Both the position numbers and the translations under genes were made by a program. From Chthoniobacteraceae bacterium (lineage in GTDB: Bacteria > Verrucomicrobiota > Verrucomicrobiia > Chthoniobacterales > Chthoniobacteraceae): a DNA stretch of 64,000 nucleotides. How positions within the stretch are numbered: the first letter of the stretch is position 1; every line of letters starts with the position of its first letter. Shown piece after piece: positions 29,579 through 50,605 of the stretch. Under the pieces are notes generated by a model, which did not search any database, was not told where the DNA came from, and saw nothing but the letters and a program-made list of their open reading frames with translations. The stretch is from NCBI GenBank assembly GCA_947476045.1, contig CANJNZ010000015.1, forward strand, positions 1 through 64,000. The letters are read 5' to 3'.

Positions 29579-32234
<2,656 letters not shown>

Positions 32235-32972: not shown

Positions 32973-33887
32973 TCACTGCACAGCGAGATGGCCGAGGGCG
33001 AGCAGGCCATAGAAAGTATATTCCGCATCGAGAGCATCGTCCGCCCAATGTCCGTGGAAGCCGCCCTCCGCGCTCCACAGCGTGTCCACAAAATCGAGAC
33101 ACCGCTCGCGGATTGCCTCCGGCAAAGTGCGGTCGAGACACGATAGCGCGTGAAGCGCCGTGGCCGTGGAAAGTAAATCCGGCAACGGAGATCCGGGCGC
33201 AGCAAGCCACCCGCCCTCCGCGTGTGCCTGCGCGAGCAACCAGTCGCCGACGACATCGTTCACCGGCACGCCGAGCTGATGGAGCAAAGTCACCGCCGCC
33301 GCCGTCGCGGGCACCGTGCCCTGACGCATCCCGAGCACATTTCCCCACGCACCGTCGGGTGTTTCGAGAAACTTTAAGCACTGCACCATCCGCATCGCAT
33401 CCGGCACTTCGCGCCCGAGGTCCTGATACGCACCGAGCGCGACAAAACACCCATACGCATGCCCGTGCGCCGCGCTGCGCTTCTCGTGATAGCCGCCATC
33501 CGCCGTGCGAAATCCCTCAATGCGCGCCAGCAATTGCTCCGAATCTGAAACAACACCACTCGCCGCCCTGCACCGCGCCAGCGCGCCGAGGTGGATAAAA
33601 TCAAGCCCTTCCCCTTCCCCAAAAGCCGCCACAAATTTCCCCAGCGACTCCCACAGCGCAGTATTTTCGTCATTCGCAAATCCGTCATTCGTCATTGTCA
33701 CCGCCTGCATTCCCGCAAGCGCGAAGATGGTGTAGTAAAGATCCGCCCGCCCCGCGCGATCACGTGCTCCTCCTTCACTCGTGAACTGCCGCATCAAAAA
33801 ACCGCGCACCAATTCGGTCGAGTCTCCGAGCATCTTCGGAGCAAGCCGTGCGACCTGTAGCATTTCGAGACGGAGACTGCGGTTCAT
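32973..33887 (-). CDS. Prenyltransferase/squalene-oxidase-repeat protein
   Basis: 304 residues from the ATG at 33887 (MNRSLRLEMLQVARLAPKML). It is built of repeats of the alpha/alpha-toroid type seen in protein prenyltransferase beta subunits and terpene cyclases: FRTADGGYHEKRSAAHGHAYGCFVAL, FLETPDGAWGNVLG, AHAEGGWLA and AEGGFHGHWADDALDAEYTFYGLLAL. The QW-like GGxxG turns are clear, but the terpene cyclase DxDD motif is not seen, so enzymatic activity is doubtful. It is the last gene on the minus strand after the copper operon (65 bp gap) and may be read through from it. Confidence 0.75.
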   Translation of the reverse strand: MNRSLRLEMLQVARLAPKMLGDSTELVRGFLMRQFTSEGGARDRAGRADLYYTIFALAGMQAVTMTNDGFANDENTALWESLGKFVAAFGEGEGLDFIHLGALARCRAASGVVSDSEQLLARIEGFRTADGGYHEKRSAAHGHAYGCFVALGAYQDLGREVPDAMRMVQCLKFLETPDGAWGNVLGMRQGTVPATAAAVTLLHQLGVPVNDVVGDWLLAQAHAEGGWLAAPGSPLPDLLSTATALHALSCLDRTLPEAIRERCLDFVDTLWSAEGGFHGHWADDALDAEYTFYGLLALGHLAVQ

Positions 33888-33952
33888 CGCGCCAAGTCTC
33901 CGCGCCAGCACGCACACGACAAGATGATTCCCGCATCACAGGAACGGATGCC

Positions 33953-35683
33953 TCACTCTTCGCTGAGCGTTTTGAGAAAGGCGACTAGGGCCCGGCGATC
34001 TTTTTCAATCAGCGGCACGCCACCGTCGGGGTGCTTGGCGAGATTGGGATCGAGCGTGGGGCTGCGATAGAGGCCGGTGGTGTAGTGGGCCACGACTTCT
34101 TCGAGTGTAGCAAAACGGCCATCGTGCATATAGGGGGCGGTGCGGGCGACGTTGCGGAGGCTGGGCGTGGCGAATTTGCCGCGATCCGCTTCGTTCTTCG
34201 TTACGATGAAGCGGCCTGCGTCGGCGGGGTTGGGGGCGAGGCCGTTGTTATGAAACTGGTGGTCGCTAAAGAGCGGGCCTCCGTGACAGTGGAAGCAATC
34301 GGCACCCTGCTGGCCCGTGCGCGGATCGTATTCCTTCATGAACAGCTCGAAGCCTCGTTGCTCCTCCGGAGTGAGCGCGGTCTTGCCGAGCATCGCACGG
34401 TCGAATTTCGAATCGAAGGCTGTGAGTGTTAGGAGGAAGTTTTCTATCGCGAGGCCGATTTTTTCTGAGGTGATTTCCGGCGCACCGAAAGCGGCGCTGA
34501 ACAGCGATGGATACTCAGCTTTGGCTGCGAGCTTTGCGACCACGCGGTCAAGTTTCTCGTCCATCTCGGTGTGATCCTGAATCGGCATCAATGCCTGCGC
34601 GCGGAGCGACGGGGCACGTCCGTCCCAAAAGAAGCTCGTCTTCCACGCGAGGTTGAAGAGCGGCATCGAGTTTCGAGTCCCGGCCTGACCGTCCACGCCC
34701 TTGCTGAAGCGGCGCGGGTCGGTGTGGGCAAAGTTGGCCACATGGCATGACGCGCATGAGAGCGTGCCGTCGCGCGACAATGCAGTTTCGTTGAACAGCT
34801 TTTTACCAAGTGCGATGCGTTCCTCGATGAGCGGATTGTCGCGCGGCAGATCGGGCACTGGAAAGCTGCCGCTCATCGTGAAGCGATACGGCGTGAATTT
34901 TTCCGGCAGGTAGAGCGGCTTCACCGGCGAAGGGCGGCTGATTGCGGGAATCGCCGACGTGACCTGCCGCACGCGAAATGCGCCGGGCAGATTCGCTGCA
35001 AGGGAGGCGGCGACAGCATCTCCTTCACGGGAATGAGTGGCGGAGCCATCGCGGGCGAACGACAGCGGACGCGGCGCGTTGAGCAGGGCTGCGAGATCGA
35101 AGTCGAGCAGAACCCCGGCGTCGTGTGTGAGATCGAGCGGCACCGCGAGGTTGATGCGCGTGCGATTCGGCGTGCGTGCGAAGTGATACGAGTAGCCGGA
35201 CAACTCCGCGCCCGCCGTAGCGCGATAGCGTCCCTCCATCGCGAGGAAGATGTATCCTGTCTGCCACGTCCAATGCAGCCCGTTGAGATTCGCGTTGAGC
35301 GGATGATTTGGTGCGAGGCCTGCGGGATTTGCAGAGTTCGCCTCCGCATCCGGGCCGATGTGAAAACGCAACGCGCGATACTTTCCCTCCGGCACGCCTT
35401 CGAGCCGTGCGGACAGGCGGCGTTTTTCCGCGTCCATCCACGCATATTGATCGGGAATCTCCACCCATACACCATCATCGCGCTCCACGGCAAAACCGCT
35501 GAGAAGGTAGCTCACCCTCGTGAACGACAGCGTCTCGGCGGCGGAGTTTTGAAAACGCAGCGAATCGAGGAGCAGTAGTTTACCACCGAATTTGTGCTGG
35601 ATGGAAATTTCGAGCGTCGCCGCGTGGACGAAAATCGACCCGCAAAGCACGCCTGCCATCACGAATGTTCGAATTGCCTTCAT
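33953..35683 (-). CDS. MbnP-MbnH fusion: copper-binding domain joined to a dihaem MauG/cytochrome c peroxidase-like domain
   Basis: 576 residues from the ATG at 35683, which overlaps the cusA stop by four bases (the frame is open further but there it is the shadow of cusA). A signal peptide (about 1-22) is followed by an MbnP-like domain (about 23-235) with the conserved NGLHWTWQTGYIFLAMEGRY (W138, W140). Residues about 262-574 form a dihaem peroxidase with CASCH (310-314) and CFHCH (463-467), and APYMHDGRFATLEEVVAHY. In methanotrophs MbnH oxidises a tryptophan of the separate protein MbnP to kynurenine, creating a copper site. Here both are one chain inside a copper operon. Periplasmic. The domain calls are strong; the chemistry in this protein is inferred. 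Confidence 0.88.
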   Translation of the reverse strand: MKAIRTFVMAGVLCGSIFVHAATLEISIQHKFGGKLLLLDSLRFQNSAAETLSFTRVSYLLSGFAVERDDGVWVEIPDQYAWMDAEKRRLSARLEGVPEGKYRALRFHIGPDAEANSANPAGLAPNHPLNANLNGLHWTWQTGYIFLAMEGRYRATAGAELSGYSYHFARTPNRTRINLAVPLDLTHDAGVLLDFDLAALLNAPRPLSFARDGSATHSREGDAVAASLAANLPGAFRVRQVTSAIPAISRPSPVKPLYLPEKFTPYRFTMSGSFPVPDLPRDNPLIEERIALGKKLFNETALSRDGTLSCASCHVANFAHTDPRRFSKGVDGQAGTRNSMPLFNLAWKTSFFWDGRAPSLRAQALMPIQDHTEMDEKLDRVVAKLAAKAEYPSLFSAAFGAPEITSEKIGLAIENFLLTLTAFDSKFDRAMLGKTALTPEEQRGFELFMKEYDPRTGQQGADCFHCHGGPLFSDHQFHNNGLAPNPADAGRFIVTKNEADRGKFATPSLRNVARTAPYMHDGRFATLEEVVAHYTTGLYRSPTLDPNLAKHPDGGVPLIEKDRRALVAFLKTLSEE

Positions 35684-38600
35684 CGAGATACTGCGGGGGA
35701 TGATGGAATTTCGCGCAGGCGCAGCCACAGGAAAATCACCGGTGTGACGACAAGAACGTGGATGAGGCTGCTCAACATTCCGCCGATGACGGGAGTCGCG
35801 AGCGGCTTCATCACCTCGGAGCCGACACCATGGCTCCACATGATCGGCAGCAGGCTCGCGACAATCGTGGCGACCGTCATCACCTTGGGCCGCAGGCGCA
35901 GACGCGCGCCTTCTTTCACCGCCGCGACGAGGTCGGCCCTGCTGAATGTCGCGCCGCACTGCTGGCGTTTCCGCTGCACGGCCTCGTCGAGATAAACGAC
36001 CATTACCACCGCAGTCTGAATCGCGGTGCCAAACAGCGCGATGTAGCCGACGCTCACGGCGACGCTGAAATTCCACCCGAGCGCGTATTGCAAAATGAAT
36101 CCGCCGCTCAGCGCAAATGGCACCGCAAGGATCACGTGCGCTGCCTCCAAAAGTTTTCCATAGAGCATATGGAGCAGTAGAAAGATGATGAGCAGCACGC
36201 TCGGCACGACGATTTTCAAAGTTCGCGCTGCGCGCATCTGGTTTTCATATTCTCCGCTGTATTCGATACTCATCCCCTGCTCCGCGAGCTTCGGCGCGAT
36301 TTCGCGATCCACGCGCGCTTTCACTTCCTCGACAAAGCCGCCGAGGTCGCGCCCGGCCACGTTTGCCTGCACGTAGGCGCGGAGCCGTCCGTTCTCGCTG
36401 GCGATTTCATTCGGCCCCTCGACGCGTTCAATTTCCACGAGTTGCCCGAGCGGGATCACCTTTACCGGGCCGCCTTCGGTTTTCGCGCCGACGAGCAGTT
36501 CGCGCAGTCGGTTCAAATCCTCGCGCTCGCTGCGCTCCAACCGCACCTGGACGGGAACACGATTGCGGCCTTCGATTGCGGTGGTGATGTTTTTTCCGCC
36601 CAGACCGACTTCGATGACATCGAGAACGTCCTGCGCCGTCACTCGGTGGCGAATCAGCGCATCGCGATCCACTCGGATTTCAACATACGGCTTGCCCTGT
36701 ATCCGGCTCGTCGCAACTCCCGTTGCCCCTCGCACATCTTGAACAATCCGCTGCACCCCGGTCGCCGCCTGCTGGAGTTTGCCGATGTCGTCGCCAAAAA
36801 TTTTCACACCAAGCTGCGAGCGGATGCCGGTGGAAATCATGAGTATTCGCCCTTGGATCGGCTGGAGAAAACCCGGCACCGATCCCGGCACCTGCCGCAA
36901 CTCCTCCATCATTTCGGCGATGAGTTTGTCCATCGTCATGCCCGCGCGCCATTCGTTCTCGGGCTTCAGCATGATGGTCGTCTCGATCATCTCGGTCGGT
37001 GCCGGGTCTGTCGCCGTTTCCGCGCGTCCGAGTTTTCCCACGGCGGATCGCACCTCGGGGAAGCTTTCAAAGACCCGATCCTGCCACGCCATCACGCGCT
37101 TCACCTCGGAAAGCGAAGTTGCCGGAACGAGACTCGGCATGAAAAGAAGGCTGCCCTCGTTCAGCGGCGGCATGAATTCCGATCCCATGCGCGGGACGAG
37201 CGCGAGCGCACCGGCGAAAATGATCGCGGCTCCGGCGAGGACCGTCTTGCGGTGCGTGAGCGCAAAATCGAGCACGGGATCATAAAGCCGCAGCAGAAAG
37301 CGCATGACGATATTCCGATCCTCCGCGTGAAACGGCCCGCGCACGAGCATCGTGCAAAGCACCGGCACGACCGTCATCGCAAGCAGCGTCGAGGCGACCA
37401 TCGCGAAGGTTTTTGCGAAGGCGAGCGGGTGAAACATTTTTCCCTCCTGCGCACCCAGCGCAAACACTGGGACAAACGCGAGAATGATGATCGCCATTGC
37501 AAAAAAGATGGGCCGGCCCACCTGCTTCGCGGCCTCCAGCACGGTCGTCAGACGCTCTGCGGCGTTGAGTGCGGTTCCTTTGCGGGCCTCCGCGCGCTCG
37601 CAATGGCGGATGACATTTTCCGTCAGCACGATGGCCGCATCCACGAGCACGCCGATGGCGATGGCGATGCCGGAGAGGCTCATGATGTTCGACGTGATGC
37701 CGAAGTGCCGCATGAGGATGAACGAAATGAGAATGCTCGCAGGCAGGGGCAGCGTGACGATGAGGATGCTGCGGAAGTGGAATAGGAAAACAATGTGCGC
37801 GAGCGTCACGAGAATGATCTCCTCGGTTAGCGCGCGCTTCAGTGTCGCAAGTGTCCGGTCAATGAGTTCGCTGCGGTCGTAGAACGCCTCAATCGAAACT
37901 CCGGGCGGAAGCGTCGGTGCGATCGCGGCGATCCTTGCTTTCACTTTTTCGATCACGTCGCGGGCGTTTTCCCCGTTCCGCATGACGACGATGCCACCCA
38001 CTACTTCATTGCCACCGTTATCCAGCGTGCCGCGTCGAAAATCCCCGCCTAGCTCCACGCGCGCCACTTCCCGCAAACAGATGGCTGTTCCGTCCTTTTC
38101 CATCACCACAATCTTTTCCAGATCCTCCGCGCTTTGGATCAGACCCACGCCACGCACGACGAACTCCATTCCGTTCTCCTTAATGGTCTTTCCGCCGACG
38201 TTCAAGTTCGAGCGCCCGACGGCATTCATCACCATTTCGAGCGTCACTCCGAGCGCTCGCATTTTCTGCGAATCCACTTCGACCTGATACTGCCGGACAA
38301 ACCCGCCGATGCTCGCAACCTCGGCGACTCCGGGCACAGCGCCGAGCTGAAAGCGGATGCGCCAGTCCTGCAACGCACGAAGCTCGCCGAGATCATAGCC
38401 GCGACCTTCCGGCAATTTTTTAGGATCTACTTTGAGGTAGTATTGAAAAACCCAGCCGAGCCCAGTCGCATCCGGCCCGAGCTTGGCGCTGACGCCCGTA
38501 GGCAAAACACCATCGAGAGAATTGAGCCTTTCGAGAATCCGCTGACGAGCCGTGGTCTTTTCCACACCATCATCGAAGACGACCGTGATGAGGGAGAAGC

Positions 38601-38865
38601 CGAACATGCTTGTCGCACGCACCGCTTTGACACCGCCGAGCCCTTGCAGGTTTGATGAGAGCGGGAATGTGACTTGATCCTCCACCTCCTGCGGGCTTCG
38701 GCCCATCCAGTCTGCGAAAACGATGACCTGATTTTCGCTGAGATCTGGAATCGCATCCACGGGCATCTCGCGAAACGCCTTCACGCCGAACGCGACAAGA
38801 AACAGCGCTGCACACACAACCACGAAGCGGTTTTTTAAAGCGGCTGCGATGAGCGCCTGTATCAT
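35680..38865 (-). CDS. CusA/CzcA-family heavy-metal RND efflux pump
   Basis: 1061 residues from the ATG at 38865 (MIQALIAAALKNRFVVVC), which overlaps the adaptor gene by four bases. HME-RND landmarks are present: MPVDAIPDLSENQVIVFADWMGRSPQEVEDQVTFPL near the N terminus, GIAIAIGVLVDAAIVLTENV in helix 4, MGSEFMPPLNEGSLLFMP in the periplasmic porter region, and twelve predicted helices. The pump is energised by protons and removes metal, probably Cu(I)/Ag(I) given the neighbours, from the periplasm or cytoplasm. Metal choice cannot be proven from the sequence. The final four bases overlap the MbnP-MbnH gene. Confidence 0.92.
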   Translation of the reverse strand: MIQALIAAALKNRFVVVCAALFLVAFGVKAFREMPVDAIPDLSENQVIVFADWMGRSPQEVEDQVTFPLSSNLQGLGGVKAVRATSMFGFSLITVVFDDGVEKTTARQRILERLNSLDGVLPTGVSAKLGPDATGLGWVFQYYLKVDPKKLPEGRGYDLGELRALQDWRIRFQLGAVPGVAEVASIGGFVRQYQVEVDSQKMRALGVTLEMVMNAVGRSNLNVGGKTIKENGMEFVVRGVGLIQSAEDLEKIVVMEKDGTAICLREVARVELGGDFRRGTLDNGGNEVVGGIVVMRNGENARDVIEKVKARIAAIAPTLPPGVSIEAFYDRSELIDRTLATLKRALTEEIILVTLAHIVFLFHFRSILIVTLPLPASILISFILMRHFGITSNIMSLSGIAIAIGVLVDAAIVLTENVIRHCERAEARKGTALNAAERLTTVLEAAKQVGRPIFFAMAIIILAFVPVFALGAQEGKMFHPLAFAKTFAMVASTLLAMTVVPVLCTMLVRGPFHAEDRNIVMRFLLRLYDPVLDFALTHRKTVLAGAAIIFAGALALVPRMGSEFMPPLNEGSLLFMPSLVPATSLSEVKRVMAWQDRVFESFPEVRSAVGKLGRAETATDPAPTEMIETTIMLKPENEWRAGMTMDKLIAEMMEELRQVPGSVPGFLQPIQGRILMISTGIRSQLGVKIFGDDIGKLQQAATGVQRIVQDVRGATGVATSRIQGKPYVEIRVDRDALIRHRVTAQDVLDVIEVGLGGKNITTAIEGRNRVPVQVRLERSEREDLNRLRELLVGAKTEGGPVKVIPLGQLVEIERVEGPNEIASENGRLRAYVQANVAGRDLGGFVEEVKARVDREIAPKLAEQGMSIEYSGEYENQMRAARTLKIVVPSVLLIIFLLLHMLYGKLLEAAHVILAVPFALSGGFILQYALGWNFSVAVSVGYIALFGTAIQTAVVMVVYLDEAVQRKRQQCGATFSRADLVAAVKEGARLRLRPKVMTVATIVASLLPIMWSHGVGSEVMKPLATPVIGGMLSSLIHVLVVTPVIFLWLRLREIPSSPAVSR

Positions 38866-40442
38866 GGTTTCACTTCCATTCCGCACTCCAACATTTCCCT
38901 GCCCCAATACGGATTTCGTGGCTCCCCGCTAAATTGAATCCACTCCGCCGCCGCCGGTGCGCCTTCCCATAGCTGCGCCGTCATCGAACAGCGAAACACA
39001 CGCAGCTCCGGTGTTTTCGATTTGAGCGAGAGAGCAGCCACTTCCTGACTCCACGGCAGAAATGTTTTGCGCAGCGCCTTCATATCCACACCCGCGAGCG
39101 GTGCGGATGCTTTGATATGACCCGCAGGCGGTGCAGGTAATTTCGCAATCGCTGCATTTGCAGCATCGAGATCGTCGTTTGCGAGCGTCGCGCTCAGCAC
39201 GCCCGCTGCTTTCAAAAACTCAGTCGTCTCGGCAGATGCTTCCGCTGAAACATTTGTCCCGTTGTTTCCGACTGCCATCGCATCAAGTTGGGCCTGACTA
39301 TCCATGAGCATATTGCCGGACGTCACGACTCGATCCCCTTCCTTCAATCCCTCCAGCACCTCCCAGAGAATATCGCCTGGGCGGCCAAGTTTTACCTCAC
39401 GCTGCTGATACGAGCCTTTTGTCTTTTCGACAAACACGCGCGGCGTTTTCCCCGGCCACAGCACGGCGCTTCGCGGAATGGCGATGACTTCGGGTGCGCC
39501 GAGTTCCACGGTGCCCTCGGCGAAGGTTTTGTTTTTGATTCGACGCTGGGGATTTTCGAGCACAACACGCACATCGGCTGCACGGGTCATTTCGTTGAGG
39601 TTCGGACTAATTGACGCAATGCGCGCCCGCATCGTTTCGCCGGGCAGGCTTGGCGTTTTTAAGTTCACAAATTGTCCGACCTGGATGAACGACAGGTCCT
39701 GCTCATAGACCGGAAACATGAACCACATCTTCGTGAAGTCGGCGATTTCAAAGAGCTTCACGCCCTCCTTCACATACTGCCCTTCGGCGACGTAGCTTTT
39801 CACGATGGTGCCTGTCATCGAGGCGAGTATGCCAAAATAGAGATCGTCCGGTTGGCGCTGCGGGATGTTTTTAATCTGTTCCCACACGAGTCCGTATTGC
39901 TCAAGTCGCCGCTTGATTGGCTCCGCCGCCTGCTCGCCCTGCGAAAGCGCGAGTTTGTATTCGTTCGCGGTGGTCAGCAGTGTGCGGCTGAACATGGTGG
40001 CGAGCGGTTGACGTTTTGTGACTTGCTGGCCTTCGTGATTCATCGCGAGGCCGTCAATGCGACCCTCCACCGGTGCGCTGATCACGCCGTGTCGCGACTC
40101 ATCTTCGCCGATCATCCCGGCGACTCGCAGCGTGCGGACGAGCGGCTGCTTTTTCACCTCCGCCGTCTGCACACCTACGACATTCGGGCTGCCTTGAGGG
40201 AGCATCACAATATCGTGCGATGCGTAGTCGAAATTCACGCCGCCTTCGTAAATCGGAACCAGATCCATTCCGCAGACTGTGCATTGGCCCGGCTGGTCCG
40301 ATTTCACCCACGGGTGCATCGGGCTTTGGTAATACGAAACTTTTTTTTCCGCCGCGAATGTCGGCGAGGAACGGAACGCAATGGCACCAAACCAGCCGCA
40401 CGCGCCTGTGACAACAATGGCAACCAGTGTGGCGAGTTTCAT
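38862..40442 (-). CDS. CusB-like periplasmic adaptor with an N-terminal heavy-metal-binding domain
   Basis: 526 residues. After a signal or anchor sequence comes a heavy-metal-binding domain of the YHS-like kind, SPMHPWVKSDQPGQCTVCGMDLVP (about residues 41-64). The membrane-fusion core follows, with lipoyl half-motifs, a helical hairpin (MFSRTLLTTANEYKLAL...), a beta-barrel and the MP domain. The C-terminal 130 residues (from about 395) resemble DUF3347 and end FRCSMTAQLWEGAPAA ... MLECGMEVKP. The adaptor links the RND pump to an outer-membrane channel, which is not encoded in this operon. It lies 60 bp downstream of the multicopper oxidase gene. Confidence 0.92.
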   Translation of the reverse strand: MKLATLVAIVVTGACGWFGAIAFRSSPTFAAEKKVSYYQSPMHPWVKSDQPGQCTVCGMDLVPIYEGGVNFDYASHDIVMLPQGSPNVVGVQTAEVKKQPLVRTLRVAGMIGEDESRHGVISAPVEGRIDGLAMNHEGQQVTKRQPLATMFSRTLLTTANEYKLALSQGEQAAEPIKRRLEQYGLVWEQIKNIPQRQPDDLYFGILASMTGTIVKSYVAEGQYVKEGVKLFEIADFTKMWFMFPVYEQDLSFIQVGQFVNLKTPSLPGETMRARIASISPNLNEMTRAADVRVVLENPQRRIKNKTFAEGTVELGAPEVIAIPRSAVLWPGKTPRVFVEKTKGSYQQREVKLGRPGDILWEVLEGLKEGDRVVTSGNMLMDSQAQLDAMAVGNNGTNVSAEASAETTEFLKAAGVLSATLANDDLDAANAAIAKLPAPPAGHIKASAPLAGVDMKALRKTFLPWSQEVAALSLKSKTPELRVFRCSMTAQLWEGAPAAAEWIQFSGEPRNPYWGREMLECGMEVKP

Positions 40443-40502
40443 GATTCAGGGATTCCAGCCATCCAACAGTTTGTGCAAATGCGCGCAACGCCTTTCCTCG
40501 AT

Positions 40503-43500
40503 TTATGGAATCGTCGGTATAACCACGCGGTAGAATCCCCTCGCCTGTCCGAGTCGCGTTGCATCCGTTTCGTTGAAGGTCGCTGACGTGCCATCGCTCG
40601 TGACCGAGCCAATGTCCGTCCAGCTTCCGGTGGTCATGTCCGCCGAGTATTGCAGTGTGTAGGTCGTGCCGACCGTCGCTTTGAATTGCAGCGTGATGAG
40701 GCTGTTGTCGCCTGTGCGCGTGAAGCTCGCGATGGCAAGATCCTCCACCGCGTTGTTCACCACGACGAATTGCCCCATCAGCCCATCATCTTCGTGGCTG
40801 GAAAAATGGCAGTGATACATGAAGGGATTCGTGCTGCTCGCGAAGCCGTCGAATTTTGCGATGAAGCTCACGGTTTGGTTTTGTCCGACGAAGAGTGTGT
40901 CCTTCCAGCCCTCCTCAAACGTTTTGATTCCAGTGTTGTTCCCGCCGGTGCGTGAGATGAGGTGAAACTGGATGTCGTGAATGTGGAACGAATGACTGAA
41001 GCCGGATGTGTTCGTGATGTTCCATTGCTCGACCGCGTCGAGGTTGAGCGTCTGATTGATGACCGTCGGCGAATAGACGAGGTTGTTGAAACTGAACGGC
41101 AGTCCGGTTCCGGGGAAGCCGTTGGTGATCGTTACGGTGCGCGTGTTCGTGACCTGCCCCGCTGTGTAGAAAGTATTCGTCTTCAGCGTCGCCGGGCGTG
41201 AGGTGACGGGCGTGGGACTGGTTGTGGCCGCGACTACGTTCACGTGGAGAATGTTGAACGTGGTGTTGTTCAAAAGACTGCCGAACTGGCCCGTGGTCGC
41301 CGGTTCGCTGCCGGGAAAGTCATTTGCCTGGCCGGAATTGTAGGCCTTGATGTCGAACGACGTGCCGATGGTGTCGCCTGTGAGATCTACGAGGATTTCA
41401 ATGCGCTCTCCGACAGCGATGGTCGCGCGTGTCACTGCGATGGGTGCATTCACCAAACCGCCATCGGTGCCGATGACGTAGAACGTGCGATCCGCGCCCG
41501 CGCTGGTGGTGACTCCGAGGTTGTAGCTGCGCTCCATTTCGGCGTTGAGGATGCGGAAGCGGACGTATTGCTTCGGCATACTGATTTGCGGATTCAAGAC
41601 GCCGTTGACGACCATGTTGTCGCCGTATTCCGAGCCGACGCCGACAAACTGATTGTTGGTAAAGCGACGGCTGGTGAGGGCGAGCGGAATGTCGTCCACG
41701 CCATAGGTGCGGGGGAGATTGAGCGCGGCCTCTTCGTCGTCGCGGATGATGATCATGCCGCCCGCGCCGTAGGTGAGTTGCGTCTGCGTGAACTCGTGCA
41801 GATGCGGGTGATACCAGTAGGTGCCCGCGTTGTTGTCCACCTTGAAGCTGGGCCGCCACGTGGTTCCAGCGGGGATCGTTTGATGCGGGCCGCCGTCCAT
41901 AATCGCGGGGATGTGGAAGCCGTGCCAGTGAGTGGTCGTGGTGTCGGGGAGATTGTTCGTCACGTTCATCTGCACCCAGTCGCCTTTGTTCATGATGAGC
42001 GTGGGGCCCCAGAACAACATGTTGTTGTATGCGTAGGTATTCGTCGCCGTGCCGCTGAGAAACTGTTTGGTGGTGGTGTGCAGGTTGAGGTTGAAAGTCG
42101 TGCCCGTGATGACTTCGGGGATGATGAGCGGGTTGTAGGTCTGCGCTGCTGAGAGCGTGACGTTCACGGGCGAAGTCGTGGTCACATTGCCCGCGCCGTC
42201 GTAGGCGATAGCAGTGATGCCATTCGTGCCGAAGCCGAGCGGGACGGAGATGCTCCATGTCGCAAAACCATTCGAGGTCGTCGCAGTCTGGCCGTTGACG
42301 GTGACTTTGCTGATTCCAGAAAGTGCGTCCGAGCTGGTGCCGCTCACGGTGATGGTGTTCGTGGCGGTGGATGTCCCGCTCGCCGGCGATGTGATGGCGA
42401 CGGCTGGTGCGACGTTGTCCTGCGTAGTGGAAACCGTGCTGCTATATGCGGACGAGCCGATGGCGTTCGTGGCGAGCACACGGTAGTAATAGGTGACGCC
42501 GCTCGTGAGATTTGAGAACGAGGCGCTCGTGCCTGTGACAGCCTGTGAAACGGGATTCGTGAACGCAGCGTCGGTCGCGACTTGGATCGTATAGCTCGTC
42601 GCGCCGGAAATCGCGGGCCATGTGATCGTCTTCGCGCTGCCTTGGCTGAACTGAGGCAACGCGGCAATCGTTGGCGCGGACGGAACGGTGTTGGAGCCAA
42701 CAGCGAGACTGACTGCGCGAGTGGTGCTGCCATTGTTGTTCGTGCTGTTCGTGAACGTAATCGTGTCGCTGTAGCTGCCCAAGGCGAGTGAACTCGCGCT
42801 GGCGTTAATGGTCGCGGTGACTGTGGTATTCGCCCCCGCCGTGAGCGTGCCGCTCGTGCTGGAAAGTGTGAGCCACGCCGCGGTTTTCGCGGCGGTCCAG
42901 TTCATCGAGGCATTGCCGGTATTGGTGAGCGTGTATGTCGCGCTTGATGGCGTGAACGATCCGCCCACCGTGCCGCTCGATGTGAGTCCCGTGGCCGGAG
43001 TGACTGCGAGCACCGGCGCTGCTGCGACGACTGTGTAGGAATTGCTCGCGCTCGTGGTGGTCGCAGCTGCGCTATCTGTCGCTACGATGGTGTAAGTCAC
43101 CGTGGTGCCCGTCGTCTGAGCGGGGATTGCGCTGTATCCATACACGCCATCGCCTGCGGCTCCGTCGCCGTTCGCTCCGTTATCGAGCATGTTTACCGTG
43201 ACCGGCGTGCTCGCACTGCTCGTGACGACTTTGATGTCGTCCACTCGGATGATGCCCGTTCCACCAGCGCCGCCACCGGCAAACTGAAAGCGCATTCTCA
43301 TCGTGTTGACGCGTTCGCTGGCGGCGAGGTCATAGTGGAAGAGCGCGTGTGTTGCGTGGTTGGTGTTCGATTCGCTAAGGCGCGTCGTCCACGTGCTGCC
43401 GCCATTCGAGGAAACCTGAAAATTCCATCCAGTCGTCGCGCTCTGATTCACCGCCGCGAGGTAAAATTCCACATAGCCCGACGTGCCGGTCGCGTTGATA

Positions 43501-46040
43501 TTCGTCGAGTTCGCCACCGAACCATCGCCGATGGCGTTCAGTGGCGGGCCACCGGTCACTTCCAAGCCAAACTGATTTCCAGAACCAACAGCGGTGTGAT
43601 TTGCAGCAGCGGTCTGACTGAACGGATTCGGAGGAGTGGGTCCCCCTCCGCCGACCGGCGCTGTAACGGTCCATGCGTTGTTTGCATTGGTGCCCGTCCA
43701 CGGGGACACCCCCGCCGCCGCCATCGTTTCATTGAACACCGTCGTCGCTCCACCGACGCCCGTATTATAGGTCAACTGGACGCCGGTAATCGTGCGGCCG
43801 GAACTCGCTGCTACGTTTGCCTTCACCACGACGGTATCAGAACTTGTCGGCGACGAAGGCGTGCTCGTGATTGATGTGATCGTTGGAGCCGTCGGCACGA
43901 CTGTCAAAGTGAACGCGCTATTTGCCGTAGCCGCGCCGTCATTCACCGTAATTGTGATGACCGCGCTTCCTGTCTGCCCGCTCGCGGGAGTGATGGTGAC
44001 TGTGCGATTCGCACCGCTGCCGCCAAAGACGATGTTCGCATTCGGAACAAGAGTCGTGTTTGCCGAACTGCCGGTAAGCGTGAGGCTCGCGGCGCCGGTG
44101 TCCACATCGCCGACTGTGAATGCAATCGCGGATGTGGCTGTGTTTTGATTCGTGCTCTGCGCAGCGATGCTGGCGATTGTTGGCGCGGTGTTTGTGCCGG
44201 TGACGGCGAGGGTGAACGTGGTGTTCGTCGTGGTGCTGCCGTCGCTAACGCCGACTGTGATCGTCGCCGAGCCCGTCTGGCTTTGCGCGGGCGTGACCGT
44301 CACCGTGCGATTCGCGCTGCTGCCGCCGAAGGTGATGTTCGCATTTGGAACGAGCGTTGTATTCGACGAACTCCCGCTCATCGTGAGGCTCGCAGCCGCG
44401 GTCTCCGTATCGCCAATCGTGACTGCGATTGCACTGGTCGGCGTATTCATCGCGACGGTTTGATTTGCAACGCCGCCAATCGTCGGCGGCGTATTTGGGG
44501 TGAGTGAATAGCTGGTAGTTGTAATTTGCGAGACCGTCGCGGCAGACTGTCCATTGGAATCATACGTCGCGAGCGCGGTGCGGTTCACGCGTCCGTATTC
44601 CGTGCCGCTGGTGCCGAGCGCGGTGTAGCCCGTGTTTTTCGAGATGCCCGTGGAGACGAGACCCGTTGCCTTGTTGGTGAACGACGAAAAATTTGAAACC
44701 GCTGATGCATCCACCGAGTAAGTTCCGCCCTCGACCGCGCTCCATGTGAGCGTGACCGTCGTGCCGGAGACTCCCGGCGTGCCGATGGTGAGCGGCTTGT
44801 TCGCGCCGCCTAAGAACTGCTGCGTGACGGACTCCGTGATGCTCGTCACCGCGCCGCCGGTCGGGCTGCCGTAATAAGCGCGGCCCGTCGTGTAGGGGAA
44901 CTGCGGGGTGCCATCGGAATTGATCGGCGTGAAGTAGGCCCACGTCCCCGTAGGAAATTCCGGCGTCACACAAAAGCGGACGTTCTGTTCGTTCAAATCA
45001 AAATCCAGCACCGTGGCGCCGCTCGTCTGCGTCTGCCCGAGATCGCCGCGATAATCGAAGTCTTCGATATAATGCCCCAGTGCGTATGTCGTGCTGATAG
45101 CAGGGCCGTATTGATTGGCGGCGAGAGTCGTCCGGCCTTGAATACGCTGCGCCCACAGCGGCAGCAATTCTCGAACGGTGATCGCTGTCGTGCCATTCGT
45201 GCCGTCGCGCTTTGTAAAACCAGAAATCATCCGGCGCACACCGCTGCCTGCATTCGTTGGATCGCTATAACCAAAGGGTCCATAGACCGGCAGGCCGTCC
45301 GCCGCCCACGCGACGATGGGCGAATGTGCCGTCGGCGCGCTCGCACTTTCCGTGTAGCGATTCGTCGTAGCGTTGTAGTCCACGTGATCGCCGAGCTGGT
45401 AGCGTAGCGCGATCGGGTGGGCGTGGTAGTGGTAGTTGTTCCCCGCCTGATGCGCGAGACCGGGATCAAAAGTGACGCCCTCGTTGTGGTAGCCATCACG
45501 ATTCCAGATGCCGTCACCGGTGATGCCATTGGTCGGCGTCGCGTCGGTTACGTTCGAGGTCGAGTAAGAAAATGCGTCACGCGAATCGAACATGGAAACT
45601 CCATTCACCATGCGCCCGGTCGCGCCGAGGCCGGTGAGCGTCTTCGATGTAGGAATCGTCAGTGTGCGCGGGATGCGATAGATCGTGGCGGTGTTCGTTG
45701 GAAAACTGGGGAAATTCTGCGTTTTCGCCGCATCAAGATACCACGGCCCCATGATATGCGAAGCCAGACCGCTCGTGCGGATATACACCCACGACGCGGA
45801 GTAGTTGATCTCGTTTACATCTGCGTAAACGGGATTCGTCTGTGCGTAGGTCGTGCCGTTAGTGGTCCGTGTCCAACCTTCGGATGCTTTGCTCGCGGTG
45901 GCACCTGCCGTTTCATTCGCCGCGCTTGTGTAGATGCGTGCGTATTTTCCCGAGTTCGTAGTGAACCACGAAGTAAGCTGTGGATCAGCTTTTGCCGCGG
46001 CGAGTCCGATAAATAGTAAGAGCTGAATGAGGAGTTTCAT
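40503..46040 (-). CDS. Giant secreted YHYH-domain / Ig-like / multicopper oxidase protein
   Basis: 1845 residues. Signal peptide MKLLIQLLLFIGLAAAKA. Domains in order: a YHYH-type domain (about 80-420; NYHYHAHPIALRYQ near 200 and WAADGLPVYGPFGY); two tandem 100-residue Ig-like repeats (about 515-715); a jelly-roll-like region; a BACON-like domain (about 985-1090); a fibronectin III domain; a further Ig-like domain; and a multicopper oxidase (about 1270-1790) with every copper motif: HWHGFH, YHPHLHE, HSFHIHDIQFH and HCHFSSHEDDGLM. A 50-residue beta module (YTLQYSADMTTGSW...) ends it. The oxidase probably oxidises Cu(I), possibly protecting the envelope; this and surface location are inferred. 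First gene of the copper operon. Confidence 0.9.
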   Translation of the reverse strand: MKLLIQLLLFIGLAAAKADPQLTSWFTTNSGKYARIYTSAANETAGATASKASEGWTRTTNGTTYAQTNPVYADVNEINYSASWVYIRTSGLASHIMGPWYLDAAKTQNFPSFPTNTATIYRIPRTLTIPTSKTLTGLGATGRMVNGVSMFDSRDAFSYSTSNVTDATPTNGITGDGIWNRDGYHNEGVTFDPGLAHQAGNNYHYHAHPIALRYQLGDHVDYNATTNRYTESASAPTAHSPIVAWAADGLPVYGPFGYSDPTNAGSGVRRMISGFTKRDGTNGTTAITVRELLPLWAQRIQGRTTLAANQYGPAISTTYALGHYIEDFDYRGDLGQTQTSGATVLDFDLNEQNVRFCVTPEFPTGTWAYFTPINSDGTPQFPYTTGRAYYGSPTGGAVTSITESVTQQFLGGANKPLTIGTPGVSGTTVTLTWSAVEGGTYSVDASAVSNFSSFTNKATGLVSTGISKNTGYTALGTSGTEYGRVNRTALATYDSNGQSAATVSQITTTSYSLTPNTPPTIGGVANQTVAMNTPTSAIAVTIGDTETAAASLTMSGSSSNTTLVPNANITFGGSSANRTVTVTPAQSQTGSATITVGVSDGSTTTNTTFTLAVTGTNTAPTIASIAAQSTNQNTATSAIAFTVGDVDTGAASLTLTGSSANTTLVPNANIVFGGSGANRTVTITPASGQTGSAVITITVNDGAATANSAFTLTVVPTAPTITSITSTPSSPTSSDTVVVKANVAASSGRTITGVQLTYNTGVGGATTVFNETMAAAGVSPWTGTNANNAWTVTAPVGGGGPTPPNPFSQTAAANHTAVGSGNQFGLEVTGGPPLNAIGDGSVANSTNINATGTSGYVEFYLAAVNQSATTGWNFQVSSNGGSTWTTRLSESNTNHATHALFHYDLAASERVNTMRMRFQFAGGGAGGTGIIRVDDIKVVTSSASTPVTVNMLDNGANGDGAAGDGVYGYSAIPAQTTGTTVTYTIVATDSAAATTTSASNSYTVVAAAPVLAVTPATGLTSSGTVGGSFTPSSATYTLTNTGNASMNWTAAKTAAWLTLSSTSGTLTAGANTTVTATINASASSLALGSYSDTITFTNSTNNNGSTTRAVSLAVGSNTVPSAPTIAALPQFSQGSAKTITWPAISGATSYTIQVATDAAFTNPVSQAVTGTSASFSNLTSGVTYYYRVLATNAIGSSAYSSTVSTTQDNVAPAVAITSPASGTSTATNTITVSGTSSDALSGISKVTVNGQTATTSNGFATWSISVPLGFGTNGITAIAYDGAGNVTTTSPVNVTLSAAQTYNPLIIPEVITGTTFNLNLHTTTKQFLSGTATNTYAYNNMLFWGPTLIMNKGDWVQMNVTNNLPDTTTTHWHGFHIPAIMDGGPHQTIPAGTTWRPSFKVDNNAGTYWYHPHLHEFTQTQLTYGAGGMIIIRDDEEAALNLPRTYGVDDIPLALTSRRFTNNQFVGVGSEYGDNMVVNGVLNPQISMPKQYVRFRILNAEMERSYNLGVTTSAGADRTFYVIGTDGGLVNAPIAVTRATIAVGERIEILVDLTGDTIGTSFDIKAYNSGQANDFPGSEPATTGQFGSLLNNTTFNILHVNVVAATTSPTPVTSRPATLKTNTFYTAGQVTNTRTVTITNGFPGTGLPFSFNNLVYSPTVINQTLNLDAVEQWNITNTSGFSHSFHIHDIQFHLISRTGGNNTGIKTFEEGWKDTLFVGQNQTVSFIAKFDGFASSTNPFMYHCHFSSHEDDGLMGQFVVVNNAVEDLAIASFTRTGDNSLITLQFKATVGTTYTLQYSADMTTGSWTDIGSVTSDGTSATFNETDATRLGQARGFYRVVIPTIP
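43900..44499 (-). repeat. Two tandem Ig-like repeats inside the multicopper oxidase gene
   Basis: Two units of about 100 codons sharing TTLVPNANI, FGGS, ANRTVT and QTGSA lie side by side in the coding sequence. The DNA is similar enough to suggest a recent internal duplication. Confidence 0.75.
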
Positions 46041-46325
46041 GGTGAAATGCAGGTGTAAAGGGTTCTGAATTCTGGGGACGCTATATCCTAAAGGTTAAGA
46101 GTTGATTGGGAGAAAAACGTTTATTGTTAAGGGATAGTAAAAGCGATGGGATGCAAAACGGCACCGTCTGCTCTGCTGAATCAGCCGTAAATCAGTGCAA
46201 AACATCTTGAAATCAACTACCCTAACTATTCGGCCAAAACTGTTCGAAAAAATCGCCGCTTTAATCGGTGAATGTTATGATTGACTTCAAGCATATGCTG
46301 ATATGCTAGCGAGGTGAAAGTGGCC
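46041..46325. other. AT-rich divergent region between the copper operon and the deoR gene
   Basis: About 285 bases with lower GC than the flanks and no gene. It must contain the promoter of the copper operon (to the left) and that of deoR (to the right). I see no obvious CueR/CopY-type operator. The DeoR-side motif is listed separately. Confidence 0.6.
46276..46296 (+). promoter_or_regulatory. Proposed operator 1 of the DeoR-type regulator
   Basis: TATGA-N5-TTCAA followed by GCATAT, matching operators 2 and 3 before the microcompartment operon at 17 and 16 of 21 positions. It covers a TTGACT (46281-46286) that may be the -35 of deoR. It also overlaps a perfect 10-base palindrome AGCATATGCT (46290-46299), followed by another GATATGCT. 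This fits autoregulation. Confidence 0.65.
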
Positions 46326-47159
46326 ATGCACATTGTCCATGCCCGCCGAGCCAAGCTTGCTGCTTTGCTCGAGCAGCACCGTTTTCTGCCGGTAAAGGAG
46401 CTCTGTAATCAGTTGGGTATTTCTGAGGCAACTGCCCGCCGAGATCTAGCTGCACTGGTGGAGGAGAAAAAGATCACCAGAACCTTTGGAGGAGCCCTTA
46501 AGGAATTTAATGACCGCTTCCCGTCATTTAGGGAACGCCAGAGCCAGTTTTCCAGTGGCAAAGCGCGTATTGCACAGACGGCGCTTTCGCTGATCGAGCA
46601 AGGGAAAACCTATTTTTTTGACTCGGGCACTACGATTCATTCCATCGCCAGGGCTTTTTGCGAAGCCCCGGTGACTCCGGTGAAAATAGTAACCTCCAAT
46701 CTTCCCGTCGGCGAAATGCTCGCGGCGCTTCCCGGCGTCGAGGTTTTCCTGCTTGCTGGCCAGCTCTTGCATTTGCAGTCCACACTTCTTGGTCAAACAG
46801 CATTACGCAGCCTTGAATTTTGGCATTTCGATAGAGCATTTCTCTCCGCTGAAGCCATGACCACTTCCGGGATTTGGAATTCACAGCTCGCTATCGTCGA
46901 ACAGCAAAAAGTCGTGCTGCGGCGAAGTTCGCGCCATGTTTTCTGTCTCGATGGGTCGAAGCTTGAGCGACAGGCACCTCATTTTTTGATTGGCTGGGAC
47001 GAAGTTGAATCTCTGATCACCGATTTGCCTCTAAAAAAGCTGGTCGCTGCGGGAATCCCTCTTGATCCGAGTCGCTATCTCGATCTGGCTGATCCGTCTG
47101 AGGAACGACCAGCCGAATCATCCAGCCCAAGCGACGAAATGCCCGTCCACATTCTATAG
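46326..47159 (+). CDS. DeoR-family transcriptional regulator, probable regulator of the microcompartment operon
   Basis: 277 residues from the ATG at 46326 (a GTG at 46314 in frame is possible). The N-terminal winged helix shows the family signature VKELCNQLGISEATARRDLAALVEEKKITRTFGGAL. The C-terminal DeoR effector domain reads ALSLIEQGKTYFFDSGTTIHSIA, then TSNLPVGEML and LAGQLLHLQSTLLG. DeoR-family proteins usually repress sugar catabolism genes and release DNA on binding a phosphorylated sugar. The position next to the PVM operon and the shared motif (46276, 47210, 47434) make it the likely repressor of that operon. The last 35 residues are an acidic, Ser/Pro-rich tail. Confidence 0.9.
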   Translation: MHIVHARRAKLAALLEQHRFLPVKELCNQLGISEATARRDLAALVEEKKITRTFGGALKEFNDRFPSFRERQSQFSSGKARIAQTALSLIEQGKTYFFDSGTTIHSIARAFCEAPVTPVKIVTSNLPVGEMLAALPGVEVFLLAGQLLHLQSTLLGQTALRSLEFWHFDRAFLSAEAMTTSGIWNSQLAIVEQQKVVLRRSSRHVFCLDGSKLERQAPHFLIGWDEVESLITDLPLKKLVAAGIPLDPSRYLDLADPSEERPAESSSPSDEMPVHIL

Positions 47160-47209
47160 ACCGGTGGCTGCAAGCAGTGCGGAGCGCCTATGGAATCCGC
47201 CCCAATATT

Positions 47210-47230
47210 ATACGATTGAAGTCGTTCATA
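47210..47230 (-). promoter_or_regulatory. Proposed operator 2 of the DeoR-type regulator
   Basis: Read on the minus strand: TATGA-ACGAC-TTCAATC-GTAT. It shares 15 of 21 positions with operator 3, which lies 224 bp downstream, and 17 of 21 with operator 1. Such spacing would permit looping between two bound tetramers. Confidence 0.6.
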
Positions 47231-47411
47231 TAATTATTTCCATATCAGATTACCTGCCTCCACGTTGTTTTTTTATTTCACTGAAAACTTGGCCTATCTC
47301 GCTCTCTTTTGTGGGGAAAATGTTTACGCCTTTGTGCAGAACACTCGATCCGTCTTGGTCAAAAAGACATTGCAGCTTGGTGATCGATTCCTAGATACTT
47401 GAAAATAGTTA

Positions 47412-47439
47412 TTGACGTGCCGCAGTAGACTTATATGAC
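47412..47439 (+). promoter_or_regulatory. Candidate promoter of the microcompartment operon
   Basis: TTGACG at 47412-47417 is followed by 16 bases and TATGAC at 47434-47439. The -10 is inside operator 3, so a bound repressor would block RNA polymerase. Confidence 0.45.
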
Positions 47440-47454
47440 TACATTCAATCATAT
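47434..47454 (+). promoter_or_regulatory. Proposed operator 3 of the DeoR-type regulator
   Basis: TATGA-CTACA-TTCAATC-ATAT; with the preceding A it has perfect outer arms ATATGA / TCATAT 10 bp apart. It sits 17 bp before the pduL start codon and over the candidate -10. Confidence 0.65.
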
Positions 47455-47471
47455 CGCCTTTCTCCGATAAC

Positions 47472-48146
47472 ATGAGCGCCACCATCACTCCCAGCCGTTC
47501 TACCGTCGAAGCGCTCGTTCGCTCGTCGTTACTTCGCCAGTTGGGAATGGATGCAACGAAGGGGGCGGCACCGAATTTGGTCGTGAACAGCTCAGCCCGG
47601 CACATGCACATCTCGCCGGAGAATCTAGAAGTCCTGTTCGGTAAAGGGGCAAAGCTCACTGTTCACAAGATGCTTTATCAGGAAGGCCAGTTCGCTTCCG
47701 AGCAGACCGTCACTCTCATTGGCCCCCGGCGCCGTGTGATTCCCAGTCTGCGCATCCTCGGTCCTTGCAGAAATCTCACACAAATCGAGCTCGCGCTCAC
47801 CGACGCAGTTCAACTCGGAATGGATATCCCGGTGCGGATGTCAGGCGACATCAAGGGAACTCCGGGCGGATACGTGATGGGACCGCAAGGTATGCTCGAG
47901 ATGAAGGACGGAATCATCCGCGCAGCTCGGCACGTCCACATGTCGCCGTCGGATGCAAAATTCTACAACGTGAAGCACCTCGACCGCATCACGCTGAAAG
48001 TCACCTCGCCGTTCTGCAACACCCGATTCGACGAACTGATTGTCCGCGTGGATCCGAGCTTCAAACTCGAAGTCCACATGGACACCGACGAAGCCAATGC
48101 CTGCGATCTTGAACGCGCCACCAAAGTCGAACTGATCAAATCTTAA
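47472..48146 (+). CDS. pduL: PduL-type phosphate acyltransferase (phosphotransacylase)
   Basis: 224 residues. Converts acyl-CoA (here probably lactyl- or propionyl-CoA) plus phosphate to acyl phosphate and recycles CoA inside the compartment. Two zinc-site PduL repeats are visible, each with the histidine motif: NSSARHMHISPENL and RAARHVHMSPSDAKFY. The N-terminal amphipathic helix STVEALVRSSLLRQL (about 9-23) looks like an encapsulation peptide. It is the first gene of the operon. Confidence 0.95.
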   Translation: MSATITPSRSTVEALVRSSLLRQLGMDATKGAAPNLVVNSSARHMHISPENLEVLFGKGAKLTVHKMLYQEGQFASEQTVTLIGPRRRVIPSLRILGPCRNLTQIELALTDAVQLGMDIPVRMSGDIKGTPGGYVMGPQGMLEMKDGIIRAARHVHMSPSDAKFYNVKHLDRITLKVTSPFCNTRFDELIVRVDPSFKLEVHMDTDEANACDLERATKVELIKS

Positions 48147-48169
48147 CTCCAACACAAACAAACAAACAC

Positions 48170-48439
48170 ATGAGCGAAGCAATCGGACTAATCGAAACTC
48201 GCGGCTACGTGGGCCTGGTGGAAGCCAGTGACTCCATGGTCAAAGCCGCGAACGTCACCCTCGTCAAATCCATCCCGATCGGCGGGGCCTTGATCACCAC
48301 CATCGTCAAAGGCGATGTTGGCAGCGTCAAAGCCGCAGTTGAAGCCGGGAAGGAAGCAGCAAAACGCGTCGGCAATCTCGTCGCGTCCCACGTCATCGCC
48401 CGGCCTACGCCGGAGCTGTTGAAATTCTTCACCTCTTAA
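48170..48439 (+). CDS. BMC-H hexameric shell protein 1
   Basis: 89 residues, a single BMC domain ([27 protein letters not shown]... to [15 protein letters not shown]). Hexamers tile the facets of the polyhedral shell, and the loop with PIGG lines the central pore. The leader is strongly A/C-rich (AACAAACAC just before the ATG), with no Shine-Dalgarno. It lies between pduL and a second BMC-H gene (20-bp gap). Confidence 0.96.
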
Positions 48440-48459
48440 CATCGAAAGGACATAACATC

Positions 48460-48756
48460 ATGGCTGGACAAGCAATAGGAATGATCGAAACCAAAGGTCT
48501 CGTCGCACAGTTCGAAGCAACTGACGCAATGACGAAGGCCGCAAACGTAGAACTCATCGGCTGGGAAAAAGTCGGCTCGGGCTTCGTCACCGTCTTCGTG
48601 CGGGGCGATGTCGCTGCGGTGAAAGCCGCGGTCGAAGCCGGCGCGACAGCAGCCGCTGCGATCGGCGAAGTCGTCGCGGTTCACGTTATCCCGCGCCCGC
48701 ACGACGACCTGCACGGTCTCGGCAAATTCCTCGGCGGCAAGCCTGCCGCGAAGTAG
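48460..48756 (+). CDS. BMC-H hexameric shell protein 2
   Basis: 98 residues, one BMC domain beginning [22 protein letters not shown]. The pore loop reads GWEKVGSG, so its pore is lined differently from the other two hexamers. A short Gly/Lys tail ([13 protein letters not shown]) extends past the fold. AAAGGA 10 bases upstream is a plausible Shine-Dalgarno, unlike its neighbour. Confidence 0.96.
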
Positions 48757-48783
48757 CCCGCGCGCTTTCCTCGCGCCAATATC

Positions 48784-49968: not shown

Positions 49969-49984
49969 GAACCAAACAAAACAC

Positions 49985-50266
49985 ATGTCACAACAAGCAA
50001 TTGGAATGATCGAAACCCGCGGCCTCGTCGCACTCGTCGAAGCGACGGATGCGATGCTCAAATCCGCCAACGTAGAACTCGTCGGCCCCATCACACAGGT
50101 CGGCAACGCAATGGTGACCGTCTGCGTCACCGGCGACGTCGCCGCCGTCAAGGCCGCCACCGAAGCCGGTCGCACCGCAGCGCAGTCGCTTGGCGAAATC
50201 GTCAGCGTCAGCGTCATCGCACGCCCGCACAGCGACCTCGGCGCAGTGCTCCCAAAAGCGAAGTAA
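49985..50266 (+). CDS. BMC-H hexameric shell protein 3
   Basis: 93 residues from the ATG at 49985; an in-frame extension upstream reads into ackA and is rejected. BMC domain [24 protein letters not shown], pore loop GPITQVGN, and the end SVIARPHSDLGAVLPKAK. It is closest in sequence to BMC-H 2. The leader is ACCAAACAAAACAC, again Shine-Dalgarno-free. Confidence 0.96.
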   Translation: MSQQAIGMIETRGLVALVEATDAMLKSANVELVGPITQVGNAMVTVCVTGDVAAVKAATEAGRTAAQSLGEIVSVSVIARPHSDLGAVLPKAK

Positions 50267-50284
50267 GCGTCACGCTTTCACACC

Positions 50285-50593: not shown

Positions 50594-50605
50594 GAATCCC
50601 GCTAA

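Follow-up and report, generated by a model that had tools for sequence, protein, structure and literature searches.

Closest Described Systems

Operons that combine multicopper oxidases (MCOs) of the CueO/CopA type with CusCBA are the nearest described counterparts of the locus analyzed here, which likewise contains an MCO and CusB-CusA in one operon and points to copper handling in the periplasm or outside the cell. In CueO, a methionine is the axial ligand of the T1 copper, and a Met-rich insert lies near the T1 site. The present MCO, by contrast, is fused to a YHYH domain and Ig-like modules and has no such insert; MbnP-MbnH is added to the operon, and neither CusC nor CusF was found in it.

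A second likeness is with MbnP-MbnH pairs and with CorA and MopE, where an MbnP domain with a WxW motif and a MauG-like di-haem partner are found. Copper represses CorA and MopE, both characterized kynurenine copper proteins (PMC3912023), a behavior more in line with uptake than with efflux. Here, the two partners form one fused chain encoded behind an efflux pump and paired with YHYH.

YHYH proteins of phage tails and giant viruses share with the present domain the family, the predicted fold, H239, D248, and D327, and often C357, whereas the His triad is incomplete in most phage sequences and no copper neighbors are known for them. No tested function for this widespread domain was found in the literature. 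The only published proposals that the literature search brought up concern a phage metal hydrolase (PMC7824862) and a role in phage host recognition. No report on YHYH together with an MCO was found, nor, in a search made mostly by title, one linking YHYH to copper; the MbnH neighborhood analysis of Kenney (2019) could overlap in part with the gene linkage described below. As for regulation, the CpxR motif is GTAAA-N5-6-GTAAA (PMC9600279), and two titles in the reference list of that article tie Cpx to copper.

The Fusion Protein

The window, i.e., the whole stretch of 64,000 nucleotides that was analyzed, belongs to a freshwater Chthoniobacteraceae bacterium and encodes a secreted fusion of YHYH, Ig-like modules, and an MCO (Table 1). 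A sequence-only reading of this DNA had proposed a secreted chain with YHYH, several beta modules, and a complete MCO; this composition is borne out by the Pfam domains, the four copper motifs, and the probable signal peptide, relatives of the protein exhibiting a comparable hydrophobic N-terminus ahead of ADPQ. The YHYH family profile is present at 88.5 bits (cut-off 25), Cu-oxidase_3 (residues 1323-1436) at 95.9 bits (cut-off 21), and Cu-oxidase_2 (1644-1762) at 74.8 bits (cut-off 20.4). In the stalk, Glucodextran_B (1212-1290, 43 bits, cut-off 27) and BACON_2 (1033-1106, 26.8 bits, cut-off 25) pass, and the fn3 match (1135-1205) is below its cut-off (21.8 versus 25 bits). Pfam gives no family match for the C-terminal tail. 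The whole chain contains only two cysteines, C357 in YHYH and C1744, the T1 ligand in the HCH motif of the MCO.

Table 1. Features of the YHYH-Ig-MCO operon in the window.
Feature	Position	Strand	Remarks
Promoter box TTTAC-N5-CTTAACAA-N24-CTTAAC	46094..46141	-	Starts ~100 bp before the ATG
YHYH-Ig-MCO fusion gene	40503..46040	-	1845 aa, ATG at 46040, stop included
Probable signal peptide MKLLIQLLLFIGLAAAKA, aa 1-18	45987..46040	-	Read from the sequence
YHYH domain PF14240, aa 121-372	44925..45680	-	Pfam profile; H197, H204, H206, H239, C357
Ig-like stalk: BACON_2, fn3-like, Glucodextran_B	42171..42944	-	Pfam
Multicopper oxidase (MCO), aa 1323-1762	40755..42074	-	Pfam and four Cu motifs
C-terminal tail of ~80 aa, ending in GFYRVVIPTIP	40506..40754	-	Sequence
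CusB-like periplasmic adaptor with heavy-metal-binding domain (HMBD)	38862..40442	-	Profile matches
CusA/CzcA heavy-metal RND pump	35680..38865	-	TIGR00914, ATG at 38865
MbnP-MbnH-like fusion	33953..35683	-	ATG at 35683; MbnP, then MauG-type di-haem domain
Prenyltransferase-type toroid protein, possible last operon gene	32973..33917	-	Follows the MbnP-MbnH gene

The four copper motifs of the MCO are HWHG, HPHLH, HSFHIH, and HCHFSSHEDDGLM. The position aligned with the axial methionine of CueO is occupied by a leucine, the MCO region counts 10 methionines with no Met-rich stretch, and the CueO model NF008205 is not reached (310.6 bits, cut-off 525); the closest solved sequences are those of CueO-type oxidases. 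Given the missing insert and the score below the CueO cut-off, oxidation of Cu(I) in the envelope, or of a comparable small substrate, can only be called plausible. The leucine, the missing insert, and the low score, together with the published prediction of a zinc-type metal hydrolase for YHYH, do not sustain, in the form given, the earlier proposal of Cu(I) capture by YHYH followed by its oxidation in the MCO.

The Downstream Operon

The sequence-only reading also placed the fusion gene at the head of a copper operon. The genes that follow, encoding CusB, CusA, and MbnP-MbnH, support this placement: the start of CusB lies 60 bp beyond the fusion gene, and the CusA and MbnP-MbnH genes each overlap the preceding gene by 4 bp. 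Co-transcription or co-induction with the efflux genes is only indirectly supported, by this spacing and by one conserved promoter box. CusA matches TIGR00914 at 1055.1 bits (cut-off 701.45). The adaptor passes the general RND adaptor model TIGR01730 (125.1 versus 94.9 bits) and does not reach the CusB model NF007303 (105.4 versus 390 bits).

The MbnP domain (35069-35617) matches PF20243 at 107.2 bits (Pfam cut-off 27) and falls below NCBIfam TIGR04052 (28.5 versus 140 bits), while the di-haem half, with two CXXCH motifs, passes CCP_MauG PF03150 (181.1 versus 25.6 bits) and falls below the MbnH model TIGR04039 (215.4 versus 362.85 bits). As both halves miss the NCBIfam cut-offs, “MbnP-MbnH-like” is the exact name. 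A WTW motif is located at residues 137-139 of this fused protein, which, at the end of the operon, is the best clue to the role of YHYH. The toroid gene has a relative in locus L001 alone among the loci compared, the locus whose fusion protein is 89% identical to that of the window over the best segment.

Elsewhere in the window, positions 46314-52036 harbor a divergent cluster that may be a bacterial microcompartment locus, with a DeoR regulator, a phosphate propanoyltransferase, an acetate kinase, and an aldehyde dehydrogenase. An NAD-dependent DNA ligase of 794 residues with a BRCT domain (29850-32234) stands apart from the copper operon.

Recurrence and Shuffling of the Modules

A genome scan with the window protein retrieved 72 related loci. 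YHYH and MCO are encoded in a single frame in 17 of them (L001-L010, L012-L014, L016-L018, and L024, with L004 and L017 ending at contig ends). Because this same fusion is found in other assemblies, one of which is the complete genome CP011265, it is neither chance nor misassembly. The search for YHYH and Cu-oxidase fusions thereby shows that the architecture recurs; the sequence-only reading was right to call it unusual, but it is not unique, being a recurrent verrucomicrobial design, sometimes with an inserted sulfatase. Of the 16 fused loci with a continuing contig, 13 encode CusB no more than 5 kb downstream, the loci without CusB nearby being L003, L010, and L024. Five of these 16 loci (L001, L002, L005, L007, and L012) also contain MbnP-MbnH, and MbnP occurs somewhere in the genome in 12 of the 16 genomes sampled via the loci.

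In a tree of the MCOs, from which nine near-duplicate loci, L110, and MCO matches below 550 bits were left out, 17 of 18 fused rows fall within one 19-row group (support 92). The sole “separate” row of this group, L015, begins at a contig edge. The fused row outside it, L007 4185-9818, is a second fusion, composed of a different YHYH type, Lcl_C, and an MCO. Sulfatases are inserted between YHYH and MCO in L010 (9842-16483) and L013 (3929-12820); in L018 (9926-16492) a sulfatase C-terminal match alone is found at this place, and in L009 (9094-14571) a sulfatase replaces YHYH in a sulfatase-Ig-MCO chain. These insertions and replacements, together with the second fusion type, indicate that the modules are shuffled.

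Other arrangements were observed in the related loci. A second type of YHYH, joined to a phosphatidylethanolamine-binding (PBP) domain, is encoded in these loci near Cus, MCO, or MbnP genes, as seen in L006 (11263-13065), L022 (2103-3875), L026 (5492-7198), and L044 (6098-8344). In L057-L068, MCO frames of 487 residues have equal match scores, in two groups, across several genera related to Roseobacter, among them Salipiger, Celeribacter, and Thioclava, which suggests recent transfer.

Linkage of YHYH to MbnP-MbnH

Where the two halves are encoded apart, YHYH tends to neighbor MbnP-MbnH, and the MCO tends to neighbor CusBA: YHYH stands beside MbnP-MbnH in L019, L027, L038, L041, L045, L053, and L071, and short MCOs directly precede CusB in L022, L023, L026, L029, L032, and L033. 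Since these loci had been retrieved through their resemblance to the window protein, the linkage was tested again with family searches. Among 288 Verrucomicrobiota genomes, YHYH is present in 30, MbnP in 16, and both in 16 (Fisher p 2e-18, uncorrected for relatedness), and YHYH lies within 10 kb of 12 of the 20 MbnP places. The 296 Bacteroidota genomes comprise 78 with MbnP, 34 with YHYH, and 22 with both (p 6e-7); MbnP is encoded no more than 10 kb from 9 of the 55 YHYH places, compared with an expectation of about 0.33. Before counting, fragments of listed genes were removed for Verrucomicrobiota (2 of 56 YHYH and 1 of 21 MbnP rows), as were second fragments for Bacteroidota (9 of 64 YHYH rows).

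In the acidobacterial locus L044, adjacent genes encode YHYH-PBP, an MCO, MbnP, an MbnH-like protein that ends in CusF, and another YHYH-PBP. In the Bacteroidota locus L121, YHYH and MCO genes are adjacent, and each product carries a Por secretion tail. A tandem YHYH pair adjoining MbnH and MbnP genes was also seen in L123 (7635-11442), with a sulfatase and a gamma-glutamyltranspeptidase downstream.

This linkage lends support to the earlier reading insofar as YHYH is probably a metal-binding domain related to copper: a copper-linked subclass adjoins MbnP-MbnH beyond chance in two phyla. Gene neighborhoods thus suggest that YHYH is a partner of MbnP-MbnH, a known copper-binding system. This link is the new part of the finding, the operon being otherwise a variant of known copper operons.

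A Copper-Linked YHYH Subclass

Residues D192, H197, H204, H206, D248, and D327 are conserved in most bacterial YHYH sequences and are all present here; the His triad and an Asp form a predicted metal site. H239 and C357 mark a long, copper-linked class. In standard YHYH domains, position 239 is mostly occupied by other residues and position 357 mostly by Gly, and a Cys is common at the LDEC position. MbnP, MbnH, MCO, or CusA is encoded within 10 kb for 25 of 26 rows with C357 and for 1 of 34 without it; these 60 rows come from stretches around listed places, strong ones fetched first, so that a weak third YHYH class is under-sampled. All 26 C357 places also carry H239. The His triad together with H239/C357 is found in 25 of 25 linked rows, 1 of 35 others, and 7 of 43 phage rows.

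The phage sequences (51 non-redundant, 43 aligned, 22 placed in the tree) carry H239 and C357 together in 30 of 43 rows, with no copper context known, and 33 of 43 have an incomplete His triad 197/204/206. C357 was considered as a copper-specific residue and rejected on account of these phage proteins; it is a subfamily marker, and, being common in phage YHYH domains too, this Cys is no proof of copper binding. In the FastTree phylogeny, from which partial and divergent rows, including both L044 rows, were omitted, all 46 linked and 9 unlinked rows form a single 55-row group (support 84) free of phage and standard rows, with the Bacteroidota row L139 inside its verrucomicrobial part. As the rows are related, the associations do not count as independent of one another. 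A Trp confined to the linked subclass was also looked for as a second MbnH target, and no support for one emerged: W25 is found in most long-class rows, whether MbnP is nearby or not, and W179 in nearly all classes. A copper-class YHYH query gave no match in viral contigs.

AlphaFold predicted residues 25-405 with a pLDDT of 90.4 and a pTM of 0.90 from a 68-row alignment; a 25-row alignment had given a pLDDT of 32.7 before the 43 phage rows were added. A Foldseek search of viral models with this prediction returned YHYH and tail proteins, the best match being a cyanophage YHYH (E 2.1e-17). Against the PDB, Foldseek returned nothing convincing (best E 0.5), and the best match of a VIA search had a Z of 3.7 over 46 residues, with no solved relative. 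Designed “Cake” proteins were set aside as PDB relatives, the likeness being weak, with no single significant stretch, and absent in the profile search. The predicted fold is thus without a match in the PDB searches made, which does not by itself prove a new fold.

A Shared Promoter Box

A direct repeat, TTWAC-N5-CTTWACA, is located upstream of fused genes, and the box also precedes separate YHYH and MbnP-MbnH genes as well as a two-component system. At least 10 of its 12 positions are matched in the 300-bp upstream regions of 6 of 15 fused genes, a level that none of the 247 control ORFs from these loci attains. Of the 29 YHYH genes located at MbnP loci, 5 attain it too, as do 2 of 46 MCO genes, 2 of 32 MbnP genes, and 2 of the 44 remaining YHYH genes. 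In the bacterium's own genome, the exact two-part box occurs three times and its reversed control is absent: at the fusion promoter, on contig C60 before an ammonium transporter, and on contig C1 by two-component genes. With two mismatches allowed, the box is no longer enriched over the control. The C60 box (28863-28879, L230) may be due to chance or indicate a further regulon member. On C1 (63500-68700, L266 and L229), an OmpR-type regulator and a kinase diverge from a 404-codon open frame for a secreted His-rich protein, and the box sits between them.

In 16 further genomes, picked for carrying the genes or containing a locus, 29 box hits were found versus 11 for reversed controls, 4 of the 16 having no hit; YHYH, MbnP/H, MCO, or two-component genes lie within 1.5 kb of 24 of the 29. 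In three genomes (G018, G169, and G181), boxes are flanked by the divergent two-component genes on one side and by YHYH or MbnP-MbnH on the other. The three-element form of the box gives 17 hits in 11 of the 288 genomes versus 1 for the reversed pattern, always with a total length of 48-49 even though gaps of 18-30 were allowed. YHYH, MbnP, or a regulator is found within 1.5 kb of 11 of these 17 hits; some precede other genes, and YHYH is absent from 5 of the 11 genomes. The system may therefore be a general envelope-stress response, and this wider regulon points to envelope stress at large, copper being one likely signal.

The reverse complement of the window box, GTTAA-N6-GTAAA, is one base off the CpxR repeat, the regulator belongs to the OmpR family, and the best models of the kinase include BaeS and CpxA. 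The system differs from CpxRA in its conserved third box element and in the score of its regulator, which is below the CpxR cut-off (187.6 versus 341 bits; 197.1 with the OmpR model). Simple CsoR, CueR, CusR, and CopY patterns had no matches upstream of the genes tested, and a sigma-70 scan of 33000-46400 returned no promoter.

Function and Alternative Explanations

The observed domain content, operon order, recurrence, neighbor links in three phyla, subclass residues, and shared box are to be accounted for. With moderate confidence, the fusion may be described as a secreted copper-handling protein of the envelope, in which the MCO would most likely oxidize Cu(I) reaching the envelope, or a similar small substrate, and YHYH would be a metalloprotein working with MbnP-MbnH. 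Upon envelope or copper stress, the active two-component system would bind the box and turn on the operon. CusBA would move copper outward, and MbnH would modify a tryptophan of the MbnP WTW motif, creating a tight copper site. YHYH would bind copper or assist MbnP-MbnH, copper being held outside by both, and the MCO would detoxify Cu(I) or oxidize another small substrate. A further-reaching reading can be put forward only tentatively: the copper-linked YHYH may be an unrecognized copper metalloprotein and a regular partner of MbnP-MbnH, perhaps its second substrate, in at least three phyla. Equally tentative are its other parts, that the MCO fusion of Verrucomicrobia might be a one-chain capture-and-oxidize device and that a CpxRA-like two-component system might control YHYH together with MbnP-MbnH and CusBA.

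Copper acquisition would assign YHYH and MbnP-MbnH the role of surface scavengers like CorA/MopE, with the MCO and CusBA loading secreted enzymes with copper or delivering it to them. CorA, which contains kynurenine and binds Cu(I) at the surface, is copper-repressed, so that uptake stays a real rival; MbnP-MbnH pairs occur with methanobactin operons (PMC3621798), and the surface-secretion tails of YHYH and MCO in L121 fit the same picture. The genes nevertheless overlap with those for a heavy-metal RND efflux pump, the adaptor of which carries an HMBD, and no TonB-dependent receptor was found among the window neighbors scanned, which leaves acquisition rather unlikely. To the same modest degree, the MCO could be a laccase or Mn(II) oxidase within a chain that acts as a surface enzyme on humic or polysaccharide substrates, the copper genes serving just to provide its metal. 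The leucine at the axial position, the missing Met-rich insert, the numerous Ig-like linkers, and the sulfatases that are inserted in L010 and L013 (in L018 as a C-terminal match alone) or replace YHYH in L009 speak for such an enzyme, whereas the window protein has no sulfatase, its nearest solved sequences are CueO-type oxidases, and short MCOs without YHYH have the same CusB synteny. Improbable, finally, is that YHYH is a cell-surface metal-dependent hydrolase or binding domain, as in phage tails, brought to the copper operon by incidental shuffling: a Zn-hydrolase is predicted for jumbo-phage YHYH (PMC7824862), YHYH is also fused to sulfatase, Lcl_C, and PBP domains, and standard-class YHYH genes are mostly distant from copper genes, but the linkage to MbnP is non-random in two phyla, with a case in a third, and the linked subclass has its own residue set and a promoter box in common.

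Biological Meaning

A copper-associated bacterial subclass of YHYH tied to MbnP-MbnH would give this domain a concrete, testable function. Relatives of the kynurenine copper proteins, which have been studied in the context of copper uptake by methanotrophs, are here encoded behind an efflux pump, and such proteins may have a role in copper defence too.
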